From a bacterium (GTDB taxonomy: Bacteria > Actinomycetota > Acidimicrobiia > Spongiisociales > ZC4RG35): a stretch of 64,000 nucleotides of DNA. The DNA lies in the NCBI GenBank assembly GCA_028824015.1, contig JAPPFC010000036.1:186001-250000 (forward strand), written 5' to 3'. Positions 38,815-43,951 of this stretch are shown here, one piece after another; the first letter of the stretch is position 1; the number at the start of each line of letters is the position of its first letter. Both the position numbers and the translations under genes were made by a program. Below the pieces are notes generated by a model. It saw only the letters and a program-made list of their open reading frames with translations, was not told the DNA's origin and ran no database searches.

Positions 38815-38876
38815 AGGCCGGAGGCTACCAGTTACCGGTGATTAAGGGCAACAGATTCTGGCCGGGGACCCTCCGC

Positions 38877-40961
38877 TCAACCCAACGGCCCGAACCACCG
38901 GTCGTGGAGCTGGCGGTAGACCCCGCTCTCGATGAGTTCCAGCAGGGCCAGATTGACCTGCTCCCGGAAAGCGGCATCCTCCTGGCTCACCACGAAACCG
39001 TACTGGACCTGTTCGAAGTCGGGCCCCACCGTCGCCACCTCGCCGCCTCCCTCCCGGGAAGCGTGGAAGTGAAGGACGGGAGCATCGAACACGATCGCAT
39101 CGACTTCGCCTGCCTCCAGCAGCGAATACGCCTCAACGACGTCATCCACCAGCACGGGCCCCACCCCGATCGAGGACAGGTAGGCAGCCCCCGCCGTTTG
39201 GTAGACCGTGGCAACCCGGTGACCGGGCAAGTCGGAGGGCCCGGCGATTTCCCCACGCAGTTCGCTCACCGCCAGCGAAGAGGCGATGGAAGCGGTGAAA
39301 CTGGCGAACACCAGAGTTCCCAGGGCTATCCAGATCAAAGCGAACACTCTCCCCTTGTCGCCCCTGGCCACCTTGTCGCCATAACCCACGGTGCTCATGG
39401 TCACCACCGACCAGTAGAACGAATCCCAGATTCCCTGGCGGTAGGGCACTGCGAAATCGGCATTGTGATGTCGTTCCAACCACCAGATCACATGGGCGGA
39501 GATCAGCACCGCCACGCCGAACACCACCAGCAACCAGGGCAGGTCCGAGGAGATGATGGCCCTCAGGAACAGCAGGATGCGGTCGCCGACGTGCCGGTCC
39601 GCTTCGCTGGGCGCCATGATGGTCAGCCCGGTGTTGAGCACCGGCAGCGAGAAGTCGACCAGCCTCTCCCTGGACTCGGTGATCGCCACACCCCCCAGGG
39701 CCACCCGGGCAACGCCCCGGTCGATGTCGTCGATCTGCTTGGCCACCGTGTCCACCGCGTAGATGTCGACCTCCATCCCCAGGCGGGCGGCCAGAAGCTG
39801 CGCCAACTCCACCTCGAAACCGCTGTAGGAGCGGTCGTCATAAATTACGAACGGCGGAAGAATGCGTGCTGCCACCGACAGCCTGCCCCCGGCCGCCGAG
39901 GCAGCGTCGCCGGTGTCTTCCAGTCCCACCGCCTGCGGGTCCGCGGCTTGTATCCAGCCCTCTACGGTGACCTGATTGGCGTTCACCCATTCCTTGGCAT
40001 GGCGGCGGATGTCTTCGGGATCCCCTTCGTCGGCCACCATCAGGGCGTTCTGAGCGGAGATGTCCTCCAGTGGTATCACCACCTGCTCCAAAAGTCGCCG
40101 GATGGAGGGATTGGCTTCCAGGAACCGGGCGTTGGCGACCACCCGTATGTCATTGGGAGGCCAACCGACCTGGCAGGGATCGTTGGCGCATCCCGGTATT
40201 CCGGGGATAATGGTCCGGTCCAGGTAGGCAGCCTGCTCCACCGGCAAGGATGGGAAGGGCGTCTCGAGCCAGACCACGTCCCGGCCGGGCTGCAACTCGC
40301 CCACCGTCCAGTTGGGCGTCCAGGTGTAGTAGAGGACCGGTTGTCCGGATCGATACCGATCAAAGGTCGCCCTGATCAGAGGTGAGTAGGCGCCCTGGAC
40401 TTGTTCGACCGTCTCACCCAACCCATAGACGTCCAGGTGGTGATCTATGATGGCGGCGCACCCCCACGAAGGCTCGCAACCGATCAGGTCGGCCAGTCCG
40501 TTCCCATCCCCATCGAACAGCGCGGCGATCTCCGGGGCGGCCAAGTCACCGAGATTGGTGATCCCGTGTGCTTCGGCGGTCGCCTTATCCACGAAGTATC
40601 CCTGTAGCGCGCCATCGTCTACCTGGGTCCCCACCATTTCGACGTATTCCTCCTGAAGAAAGGCGTCCTGTGTCGGGAACCAGCCGTTTGCCCACAGGTC
40701 CACCTCACCGGCCGCCACGGCTTCGTAGAACTCGTCGTTGTCCATGGTGACAGGTCCCTCAACCCGATATCCGAGCCGCTGGATCAAGAGACGGTAGACC
40801 TCGGCCTGGAACCAGCCGGTATCCCAGGTGGCGCGAGCCATCCGCACCGGCTTTGCTTCAGCGCCGCCGTCCTCCGACTCGGCCTGTGCCATCACCGCGG
40901 CCATTGGAAAAACGAGCAGTACTGACAGTATTCCCAAGACAACTATGGAGATTCTGCGCAT
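38877..40961 (-). CDS. Fusion: ProX/OpuAC compatible-solute-binding domain plus ionotropic-glutamate-receptor-like K+ channel
   Basis: A membrane protein of 694 residues from the ATG, or 703 from a TTG at 40988; numbering below uses the longer form. A signal peptide (about 10-35) leads to a ProX/OpuAC domain at about 46-345 with VDLWANGWFP, LIGCEPSWGC and YTWTPNW. A second receptor fold follows (369-460 and 580-700), split by a pore: TM1 at about 483-503, pore loop with TVGYGD at 533-538, and TM2 at about 548-570 ending in SFTASIASSLA, like the SYTANLAAF motif of glutamate receptors. This is GluR0-type architecture with an extra osmolyte receptor in front. It should be a ligand-gated K+ channel with both receptors outside. 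It is divergent from a BCCT transporter. No clear ribosome-binding site was seen for either start. Confidence 0.88.
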   Translation of the reverse strand: MRRISIVVLGILSVLLVFPMAAVMAQAESEDGGAEAKPVRMARATWDTGWFQAEVYRLLIQRLGYRVEGPVTMDNDEFYEAVAAGEVDLWANGWFPTQDAFLQEEYVEMVGTQVDDGALQGYFVDKATAEAHGITNLGDLAAPEIAALFDGDGNGLADLIGCEPSWGCAAIIDHHLDVYGLGETVEQVQGAYSPLIRATFDRYRSGQPVLYYTWTPNWTVGELQPGRDVVWLETPFPSLPVEQAAYLDRTIIPGIPGCANDPCQVGWPPNDIRVVANARFLEANPSIRRLLEQVVIPLEDISAQNALMVADEGDPEDIRRHAKEWVNANQVTVEGWIQAADPQAVGLEDTGDAASAAGGRLSVAARILPPFVIYDDRSYSGFEVELAQLLAARLGMEVDIYAVDTVAKQIDDIDRGVARVALGGVAITESRERLVDFSLPVLNTGLTIMAPSEADRHVGDRILLFLRAIISSDLPWLLVVFGVAVLISAHVIWWLERHHNADFAVPYRQGIWDSFYWSVVTMSTVGYGDKVARGDKGRVFALIWIALGTLVFASFTASIASSLAVSELRGEIAGPSDLPGHRVATVYQTAGAAYLSSIGVGPVLVDDVVEAYSLLEAGEVDAIVFDAPVLHFHASREGGGEVATVGPDFEQVQYGFVVSQEDAAFREQVNLALLELIESGVYRQLHDRWFGPLG

Positions 40962-41215: not shown

Positions 41216-41254
41216 ATGGTTGATCGACGAGTAGAAAGGAGTTCGTATGTCTGA
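41216..41254 (+). CDS. Possible 12-codon leader peptide overlapping the BCCT start
   Basis: ATG at 41216 is preceded by a near-perfect ribosome-binding site GGAAGGAGG at a spacing of about 5. It encodes MVDRRVERSSYV and stops at 41254, 8 bases inside the BCCT gene in another frame. The BCCT ribosome-binding site AAAGGAG lies within this small frame, so its translation could control access to the transporter start. Confidence 0.4.
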   Translation: MVDRRVERSSYV

Positions 41255-43016
41255 GAAAGAAGATCTCGATCTCACTCAGATCGCCGAGGCCTACGAGGAC
41301 TGGGAAGAGGAAGAGGAACGCCGCCGCGCGGCGGCCATCCAGAATCGACCCCAGTTCGAAGGCCTCCAGGTCGATCCTGATATCGATTTCTATCCTGAGG
41401 TGGCCGACCGGGAGCCCGGTGACAAGAACATTGTCAAGTGGGGATTCGACATCCACCCACAGGTGACGTTCTACGCCGCAGGTTTCCTGTTGCTGTTCAT
41501 CGCCTGGACTCTGTTGTTTCCGGAATCGGCCTCGGAAGTGTTCGGCGCCATTCTCACCTTTATCAACGAGAAGGTTGGTTGGCTGTACATCATTGCATTC
41601 AACATCTTCATCGGCGCCGCTCTCTACTTTGCGTTAGGCAGGTACGGCAAGATTCGACTAGGCGGTCCAGGAGCCCTTCCGGAGTTTTCCACCGGCGCCT
41701 GGTACGCAATGTTGATCTCCGCCGGTCTCGGCATCGGGTTGATGTTCTGGGGCGTCGCAGAGCCGATCTATCACCTGACGGCGCCGCCTCCCCTCTTCGA
41801 CGTCGAGCCCCTTTCAGCGGGCGCGGCGAGAGGAGCGTTGGCGACTTCCTACCTCCACTGGGGGATCCATGGATGGGCGCTGTACGGCTTGGTGGCCTTG
41901 GCCTTGGGGTTCTTCGCCTACAACCGGGGCCTGCCACTGACCTTCCGCTCGGTCTTCTATCCGATTCTCGGTCCGAGGATCTACGGCGGATGGGGCAACG
42001 CCATCGACATCCTGACGGTGGTGGCCACCCTCTTCGGGCTCGCCACCTCATTGGGATTCGGCGCCGGCCAGGCTGCTGCGGGACTGCACAAGCTCTTCGG
42101 CCTTCCGGAGGGCACCGGGTTCCAGATCCTCCTGATCGCCTTCATTACCGGACTGGCGACCATCTCGGTGGTTGCGGGTCTGGACGCCGGGGTCAAGAGG
42201 CTCAGCCAGCTCAACGTCTATCTGGCCGCAGCGTTCCTGCTGTTCGTGATGTTGGTGGGACCGACCCTGTTGGTCCTCTCGCTGTACGTTGAGAGCATCG
42301 GCGTCTACATCCAGATATTGCCCGAGTTCTCGTTCTGGAACGCGGCATTGATCGAGACCCAATGGCAGCAGTGGTGGACCATCTTCTACTGGGGATGGTG
42401 GATTTCCTGGTCTCCCTTCGTCGGAATGTTTATCGCCCGAATCTCCAAGGGGCGCTCGGTGCGGGAAATGATCATCGGTGTGATCGTGCTCCCCTGCCTC
42501 CTGTGCTTCCTGTGGTTCGCGGTGTTCGGCGGAGCGGCCATGAATCTGCAGATGACCGGTGAACTGGACGTCGCCACCGCGGTCAACGAAAACGTTGCCA
42601 CTGCCCTGTTCGTGATGTTGGAGGCCTTCCCATGGACCTTCTTCGTCTCGATAGTCGGCATCTTGCTATTGGTTTCGTTCTTCGTCACCTCGTCTGACTC
42701 CGGATCTCTGGTCGTTGACCACCTCACCTCCGGAGGGAAGCTCGACTCGCCCAAGCCCCAGCGGGTGTTCTGGGCGTGCATGGAAGGCCTGGTCGCGTGC
42801 GTGTTGCTGTTGGGAGGTGGCCTTTCGGCGCTCCAAACGGCCGCCGTGGCCACCGGGCTGCCATTCCTGTTCGTGCTTCTCATCATGCTGTGGAGCCTCA
42901 AGAAGGCCTTCGACGAAGAACTCGACCTCTTGGAGAGTCACTACGACGAAGCCATCTTCAAGGCCCAGCACAGCGGCTTGCTTGAGAGGCTGGGAAGAGG
43001 AGGCGACCCGTCATGA
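41247..43016 (+). CDS. BCCT-family transporter (betaine/carnitine/choline type)
   Basis: A 589-residue secondary transporter with about 12 membrane helices from residue 70 on. The glycine-rich helix GLGIGLMFWGVAEPIYH and the helix 8 signature FYWGWWISWSPFVGMFIARISKGRSVREM are diagnostic and hold the aromatic box for quaternary ammonium groups. The first 65 residues are a charged cytoplasmic extension with EDWEEEEERRRAAA, which could sense ionic strength as the terminal domains of BetP do. AAAGGAG precedes the ATG. The stop overlaps the start of a ProX-like lipoprotein by 4 bp, an unusual pairing for a transporter that needs no receptor. Confidence 0.95.
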   Translation: MSEKEDLDLTQIAEAYEDWEEEEERRRAAAIQNRPQFEGLQVDPDIDFYPEVADREPGDKNIVKWGFDIHPQVTFYAAGFLLLFIAWTLLFPESASEVFGAILTFINEKVGWLYIIAFNIFIGAALYFALGRYGKIRLGGPGALPEFSTGAWYAMLISAGLGIGLMFWGVAEPIYHLTAPPPLFDVEPLSAGAARGALATSYLHWGIHGWALYGLVALALGFFAYNRGLPLTFRSVFYPILGPRIYGGWGNAIDILTVVATLFGLATSLGFGAGQAAAGLHKLFGLPEGTGFQILLIAFITGLATISVVAGLDAGVKRLSQLNVYLAAAFLLFVMLVGPTLLVLSLYVESIGVYIQILPEFSFWNAALIETQWQQWWTIFYWGWWISWSPFVGMFIARISKGRSVREMIIGVIVLPCLLCFLWFAVFGGAAMNLQMTGELDVATAVNENVATALFVMLEAFPWTFFVSIVGILLLVSFFVTSSDSGSLVVDHLTSGGKLDSPKPQRVFWACMEGLVACVLLLGGGLSALQTAAVATGLPFLFVLLIMLWSLKKAFDEELDLLESHYDEAIFKAQHSGLLERLGRGGDPS

Positions 43017-43951
43017 CCAAGAGATCGAATGTATTGATCGCCGCTCTCGCGGCGTTCGTGCTGGTGCTCTCCGCCTGCGCCACCGACGGCCAGGACCGGC
43101 CGGTGACGATGGCCCGGGCCGATTGGTCCTCCGGTCACATGCAGGCCGCCATCTACGCTCAGTTGCTCGAGGAACTCGGACACGAGGTCACCGATCCCGC
43201 GTTGGCAGAGCTGCAGCCCTTCTCCTTCTATCCGGCCCTGGCCGCCGGACAGTACGACCTGTGGGTCAACGGCTGGTTCCCGAACCACGACATCTTCCTT
43301 GAGGGGGAGAACGTGACGGGCCAAGCGGTGGACCTGCCAATCGAACCCATCGGCTATGAAGTAGCCAAGGGGGGAGTTGAGGGCTGGATGGTCGACAAGG
43401 CCACGGCCGACCGGCTGGGAATCAGGTCCATGAATGACGTAGCCGCCAATGCCGGCGCCTTCGACAGCAACGGCAACGGCAAGGCCGACCTGATCGGATG
43501 CAACGCCGGTTGGGGATGCAACACCTGGATCAACGATCTGATCGCCGACGAGAGTTGGGGCGGCAGCGTTGAGCAGATCTCCGGTGACTACGACGCCCTG
43601 GTTCGGGGCGTCATCGACCGGGTGAACGCCGGTGAGTCGGTGCTGTTCTACGCCTATACGCCCAACTGGACCGCCGACTCCCTGGTCGACGGGGACAATG
43701 CGGTGTGGGTGTACCAGCACGGCGTCAACGACATCCGGGCGGTGGCCAACACCGACTTCTTGGATGACAACCCGGATATCCGTCGCCTGCTCGAGGTAGT
43801 GGCGATTCCGCTGAGCGACATCGCCGCTCAGAATGCCAGGATGGCCGCAGCGGACGAGTACTCCGACGCCGATGTCCAAGCTGACGCCGAGGCCTGGATC
43901 GCCGCCAACCGCGACCGTGTCGACAGTTGGCTGGCAATCGCCCGCGGCTGA
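43013..43951 (+). CDS. ProX/OpuAC-type glycine betaine-binding lipoprotein
   Basis: A 312-residue receptor with a signal peptide and lipobox LSAC, so it is anchored outside. The OpuAC-type fold shows YDLWVNGWFPNHDIF, LIGCNAGWGCNTWIND and FYAYTPNWTADSL, whose Trp/Tyr residues would cage a quaternary ammonium group. It matches the N-terminal domain of the channel fusion at 38877-40961 block for block. No betaine ABC permease or ATPase is in the window. Translation is coupled to the BCCT gene through an ATGA overlap, so it probably works with that carrier or as a sensor. Confidence 0.92.
   Translation: MTKRSNVLIAALAAFVLVLSACATDGQDRPVTMARADWSSGHMQAAIYAQLLEELGHEVTDPALAELQPFSFYPALAAGQYDLWVNGWFPNHDIFLEGENVTGQAVDLPIEPIGYEVAKGGVEGWMVDKATADRLGIRSMNDVAANAGAFDSNGNGKADLIGCNAGWGCNTWINDLIADESWGGSVEQISGDYDALVRGVIDRVNAGESVLFYAYTPNWTADSLVDGDNAVWVYQHGVNDIRAVANTDFLDDNPDIRRLLEVVAIPLSDIAAQNARMAAADEYSDADVQADAEAWIAANRDRVDSWLAIARG

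Follow-up and report, generated by a model that had tools for sequence, protein, structure and literature searches.

A ProX-type binding domain fused to a GluR0-like potassium channel in Acidimicrobiia and other bacteria, and its linkage to BCCT transporter genes

Introduction

Bacteria exposed to high osmolarity accumulate K+ at first and later replace it with betaine-type solutes. The closest described relatives of the channel reported here are GluR0 of Synechocystis sp. PCC 6803 (slr1257) and the group 1 prokaryotic glutamate receptors (Ger et al. 2010), which have the order S1-M1-P-M2-S2 and the filter TVGYGD in common with it. Both soluble parts of Synechocystis GluR0 face outward; K+ is carried in E. 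coli (the K+-uptake-deficient strain LB2003), the soluble domains being required, the protein affects cell volume after KCl shock, and its authors propose that it is activated while the cell exchanges K-glutamate for compatible solutes (PMC13099474). In the ligand core, the S1 Arg contacts the alpha-carboxyl and the S2 Asp the alpha-amino group of glutamate (PMC2950845). GluR0 has no N-terminal domain, and reviews describe prokaryotic ionotropic glutamate receptors (iGluRs) as lacking one (PMC12551409; PMC6385376). When the domains of 100 prokaryotic sequences were surveyed in 2010, OpuAC did not figure in the resulting network (PMC2950845).

The eukaryotic iGluRs (AMPA, NMDA) carry two extracellular clamshells per chain over a re-entrant-loop pore, the N-terminal one being of the LIVBP/ANF type. 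The ligand residues of E. coli ProX are W65, H69, W140, G141, C142 and W188 (PMC10087775 Table 2). Betaine-gated ion channels have been described in nematodes (PMC9860315), but these are pentameric Cys-loop receptors of an unrelated fold. Here we describe a bacterial gene that joins a ProX/OpuAC receptor to a GluR0-like K+ channel in one frame. It lies in a window of 64,000 nucleotides, by which we mean the whole stretch of DNA analysed (positions 186,001 to 250,000 of contig JAPPFC010000036.1, assembly GCA_028824015.1, Acidimicrobiia).

Results

Gene organization and predicted structure

The fused gene occupies positions 38877-40961 of the minus strand, from an ATG at 40961 to a stop at 38877, and encodes 694 residues with no internal stop; it is delimited by the open reading frame, by profile matches and by its orthologs. 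A long antisense ORF (38838-40385, plus strand) was discounted as a by-product of coding on the opposite strand, since domains and conservation alike belong to the minus frame. The protein begins with a hydrophobic helix (aa 1-26, 40884-40961; helix predicted at 2-26), from which we infer a probable signal peptide. The ProX/OpuAC clamshell follows at aa 37-343 (39933-40853), as delimited by Pfam, by structural alignment to 1r9l and by conservation; it contains W94, W166, W214, the pair C162/C168, and Q98 replacing a His. Pfam assigns aa 37-327 to OpuAC (E 1.5e-49), and NCBIfam identifies the N-terminal half as ProX (345 bits; cut-off 215). After a weakly conserved linker (aa 344-357, 39891-39932), the S1 lobe of a glutamate-receptor-type ligand-binding domain (aa 358-457, including R431; 39591-39890) and the S2 lobe (aa 576-691, including D626; 38889-39236) were placed by Pfam, alignment to 2pyy and conservation. 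Together they match SBP_bac_3 over aa 368-691 (E 1.2e-25), a match split by those to Ion_trans_2 (aa 483-563, 2.8e-15) and Lig_chan (aa 476-579, 2.4e-11). Among solved structures, the sequence comes closest to E. coli ProX (1r9l, 4e-63) and to the ligand core of Nostoc GluR0 (2pyy, 1e-36).

An AlphaFold2 model of the full-length protein, built from an alignment of 88 sequences, replaced a weaker run on 18 sequences (pLDDT 67.8) and reached a pLDDT of 85.8. It predicts a ProX clamshell, a linker of low confidence at 347-357 and a second clamshell. Within the latter are M1 at aa 474-496 (39474-39542), also covered by Ion_trans_2, a pore helix at 507-523 which together with the selectivity filter TVGYGD spans 39375-39443 (filter aa 524-529, 39375-39392), and M2 at 535-568 (39258-39359), a conserved helix that carries the gating-type motif SFTASIASSLA at aa 554-564. 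The S1 and S2 halves thus flank M1, pore loop and M2 in both the Pfam matches and the model, as is required of a GluR0-type protein. VIA-align gave a Z of 34.6 to ProX 1r9l over aa 35-343 (298 residues, 37% identity), and of 29.7 to 2pyy and 28.0 to 1ii5, both of them GluR0 cores; Foldseek ranked ProX at the top, followed by AMPA-receptor LBD-TMD chains. The pTM of 0.52 means that the mutual placement of the two clamshells is not fixed by the model. A preliminary description of this DNA had given the same coordinates, strand, length of 694 residues and motifs TVGYGD and SFTASIASSLA, all of which proved exact when the ORF was checked, and had held that the lack of a membrane pore in a structural model would refute it; M1-P-M2 is present in the 88-sequence AlphaFold2 model.

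The protein resembles GluR0 in its ligand core and pore, but has a complete ProX clamshell ahead of S1. With the eukaryotic iGluRs it shares the plan of two clamshells per chain over a re-entrant-loop pore. It differs from them in having a K+ filter where theirs is non-selective, and in lacking M4: the chain ends at S2, with no membrane-spanning stretch past residue 690. No ANF_receptor (LIVBP-like) domain was matched by Pfam in the fused protein, where the N-terminal domain is OpuAC, and the resemblance in this part would be convergent. Compared with the ProX/OpuAC proteins, the fold and the aromatic cage are common to both, whereas only here is the receptor covalently joined to an ion channel.

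Distribution and origin

A search with the channel half as query recovered fused frames of about 690-790 aa across the class and phylum, the longer ones being frames read open upstream of the true start. All six genomes of the genus carry the fused ORF, as do two more genera of the same family and about 26 of the 395 genomes of the class, and additional classes of the phylum were also positive. Eighteen full-length fused proteins are 55-90% identical to the query, and the conservation of the ORF is far above chance. For the ProX and channel parts alike, dN/dS among members of the genus is about 0.09-0.15, and the signal peptide is under relaxed constraint.

A scan of genome contigs extended the fusion to Nitriliruptorales (L082), an actinobacterial-labelled bin (L094), Cyanobacteria (L084, L087, L093), Deltaproteobacteria (L086, L097), Bacteroidetes (L091) and Kiritimatiellae (L109). 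L093 is the isolate Baaleninema simplex PCC 7105, whose fused frame lies on a 4-Mb contig. Both halves were confirmed by Pfam in the frames found outside the home group, and searches centred on cyanobacterial and deltaproteobacterial genomes yielded more fused relatives. Matches in the plasmid collection were either stand-alone ProX proteins or partial, and in no case was 80% of the query covered. Its occurrence in several phyla implies that the fusion was either transferred horizontally or inherited from an old ancestor, and the two were not separated.

One deltaproteobacterial genome (G940, C9:26476-28577, L174) has ProX and channel in two frames with a 16-nt overlap, due to either a frameshift or a natural split version. 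A cyanobacterial channel (L096:5221-8701) has a degenerate OpuAC part, and the next gene, with an NMT1-like binding domain, overlaps its end. Outside the window, the genome under study itself contains an ORF with two tandem ProX copies at a contig end (L002, C39:284256-285948), 94% identical over 719 nt, representing either an assembly artefact or a fresh duplication.

In the channel-half tree, 28 fused rows cluster together with three unfused cyanobacterial ones (SH-aLRT 96), a grouping for which one gain and two losses suffice. In the tree of the ProX half, one branch (support 91) separates all fused domains from the other ProX rows, namely E. coli ProX, plasmid-borne ProX and the neighbouring stand-alone proteins. 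Both trees fit a single old fusion, with the qualification that support is moderate and that they were built from quick searches.

Ligand-binding sites

Five of the six ligand residues of E. coli ProX are kept in the window protein, in which W65, H69, W140, G141, C142 and W188 correspond to W94, Q98, W166, G167, C168 and W214, the exception being Q98 for H69. We counted conservation over 46 rows (the query and 45 fused proteins, one of which, L096, is degenerate). W65 and W140 are each kept in 45 rows, as is C142 with the Cys pair, while W188 is kept in 39, with Phe in six. By these alignments the three-Trp betaine cage predicted from ProX is almost invariant in the fused family. The carboxylate-binding His69 is kept in 40 of the 46 rows, and Gln takes its place in the window copy and in some members of its genus.

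In the channel half, TVGYGD is invariant (45/45 fused proteins), R431, the S1 Arg, is likewise present in all 45, and D626, the S2 Asp, in 43; both residues are common to GluR0-type channels. Position 426, the counterpart of Thr70 of E. coli GlnH, which is a ligand contact there, is Thr or Ser in 56 of 60 unfused relatives but mostly Ala (32/45) or Gly (4/45) in the fused clade, suggesting that the amino-acid site may be altered. From the residues alone, this site appears to be retained in outline, yet it may be altered in a manner that remains unexplained.

Genomic context

Upstream and divergent from the fused gene lies a BCCT betaine/choline-family transporter gene (41247-43016, plus strand; Pfam 3.3e-185, NCBIfam bcct), syntenic across fused loci. 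It overlaps by 4 nt with a gene for a stand-alone ProX-like binding protein (43013-43951, plus strand; Pfam, NCBIfam ProX, synteny) that bears a lipobox-like LSAC. This pair (41247-43951) is conserved across loci; to our knowledge, BCCT transporters do not need binding proteins. A leader ORF of 12 codons (MVDRRVERSSYV; 41216-41254, plus strand), seen in the sequence and in the genus alignment, has its own GGAGG, ends with its stop across the BCCT start codon and is recognisable in most genus members. Its arrangement suggests translational coupling or a regulatory leader, although coding has not been shown. The fused protein does not qualify as a subunit of an ABC importer: it is joined to a channel, the neighbours encode MsrA, the BCCT protein and the ProX-like lipoprotein, and no ABC ATPase or permease is found among the immediate neighbours.

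Using the window BCCT and ProX-like genes as probes and counting only fused loci with full flanks, we found that 15 of the 19 fused loci have a BCCT gene no more than about 6 kb away, and that the 36 unfused GluR0-like loci have none (Fisher 3e-10). As the rows are related, this p-value makes the association look stronger than it is. The linkage is concentrated in one fused clade, and a phylogeny-aware pair test had only two independent pairs and hence no power. The Bacteroidetes locus and three cyanobacterial fused loci lack a BCCT gene over a distance of about 6 kb. Channel and BCCT genes are divergent in most Acidimicrobiia loci, co-directional in the order BCCT-SBP-channel in L073, L081, L086 and L097, abutting in L109, and in the order channel then BCCT in L094; in L082, BCCT and SBP are convergent, downstream of the channel. 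That the link is kept despite rearranged gene order argues for a common function in betaine handling. Directly 3' of the fused channel, an EamA-family transporter gene is present in a deltaproteobacterial (L086:7136-8116) and the Bacteroidetes (L091:7150-8040) locus.

Discussion

The central claim of the preliminary description, a single chain comprising a ProX-type receptor and a GluR0-like K+ channel, is borne out by the agreement of profiles, predicted structure, cross-phylum orthologs and domain trees. It further suggested that this was not a described class, and we found no description of a ProX-GluR0 fusion class in the open-access literature, most subscription papers lying outside the scope of the search. 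Many known orthologs with a characterised function had been named as something that would remove the novelty; orthologs are indeed many, and a described function was found for none. Taken singly, the channel half is an ordinary GluR0 type and the receptor half an ordinary ProX, while their union, its spread and the tie to BCCT appear undescribed. Domain-architecture databases may already carry the combination without comment.

We consider it somewhat probable that the protein is a K+ channel in which the N-terminal clamshell responds to betaine outside the cell by modulating gating, so that K+ release is coordinated with betaine uptake; ligand and gating are both inferred. Four identical chains would make up a ligand-gated K+ channel of the GluR0 type, each with an additional receptor outside the cell at its N-terminus, the tetramer, the topology and the ligand-gated current being inferred without current data. 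On the outer side of the membrane, the ProX domain would bind glycine betaine or another quaternary-ammonium solute like it, an identity for which there are no binding data, and its closure would be relayed via the short linker to the S1/S2 clamshell, which would pull on M1/M2 and open or tune the K+-selective pore. The direction of this coupling is also an inference. The adjacent BCCT transporter and ProX-like lipoprotein would import betaine. Once betaine is available, the channel would release the K+ built up early in osmotic stress, an inferred efflux by which betaine replaces K+ as osmolyte; alternatively, the exit of K+ may balance the charge of Na+-coupled betaine import. Least certain is the step that would make the protein a two-input device, in which S1/S2 has probably retained the binding of a small ligand resembling an alpha-amino acid. 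By analogy with Synechocystis GluR0, the presence of a ProX clamshell and a BCCT importer leads us to propose that the shift from K-glutamate to compatible solutes could be read directly from the betaine supply.

The conserved Trp cage and the BCCT linkage, neither of which was part of the preliminary description, lend support to an osmolyte receptor, ligand binding and gating remaining inferences from sequence, while Gln98 in place of the carboxylate-binding His69 in the window copy weakens the case for a betaine sensor. The same substitution would suit a ProX domain that serves as an assembly or allosteric scaffold, as in the N-terminal domain of AMPA receptors, with only an amino acid at S1/S2 opening the channel. 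Assembly is a frequent role of eukaryotic N-terminal domains, and the conserved R431 and D626 also speak for this reading. A scaffold, however, has no need of the three-Trp cage and disulfide pair that are near-invariant across phyla, and the amino-acid site is itself changed at position 426 in the fused clade, so we find such a role unlikely. BCCT transporters are usually Na+-coupled, and the ProX domain might be a tethered scavenger or docking module for BCCT, the channel compensating charge without being gated by betaine. This would account for the tight linkage and for the co-directional BCCT-SBP-channel order in L073, L081, L086 and L097, but the operon already has a separate ProX-like lipoprotein, fused genes occur without a nearby BCCT gene in Cyanobacteria and Bacteroidetes, and binding proteins are not normally used by BCCT proteins; we regard it as quite improbable.

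There remains the question of whether the fusion is real and maintained. An assembly or annotation artefact merging two genes, or a decaying, non-functional fusion, could be suspected from the split version in one deltaproteobacterial genome and the degenerate ProX part in one cyanobacterial copy. The preliminary description had likewise named a sequencing error as its possible undoing. Yet the same fused frame is open in dozens of independent genomes, which rules out a sequencing or assembly fusion, and dN/dS is about 0.1 for the ProX and channel parts alike; artefact or decay can hardly be entertained.

Returning to a betaine-sensing channel, such a protein probably lets cells set potassium by the osmoprotectants available outside. 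Whether it also represents an undescribed class of bacterial glutamate receptor with a functional N-terminal ligand-sensing clamshell, in which two inputs, external betaine and an amino acid, open a K+ pore, we consider an even call. If true, the protein would be without precedent both as a prokaryotic iGluR bearing an N-terminal domain and as a betaine-gated channel in bacteria, and the two-clamshell plan of neuronal receptors would have been reached independently. For the evolution of iGluRs, the fusion means that a bacterial lineage gained its N-terminal domain from a different family of binding proteins. Because the ProX ligand is predictable, the fused proteins are good test objects for the control of a GluR pore by an N-terminal clamshell and for a natural wiring of receptor to channel. 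Between the K+ and betaine arms of osmoadaptation, a channel responding directly to the betaine level would supply a missing physical link.
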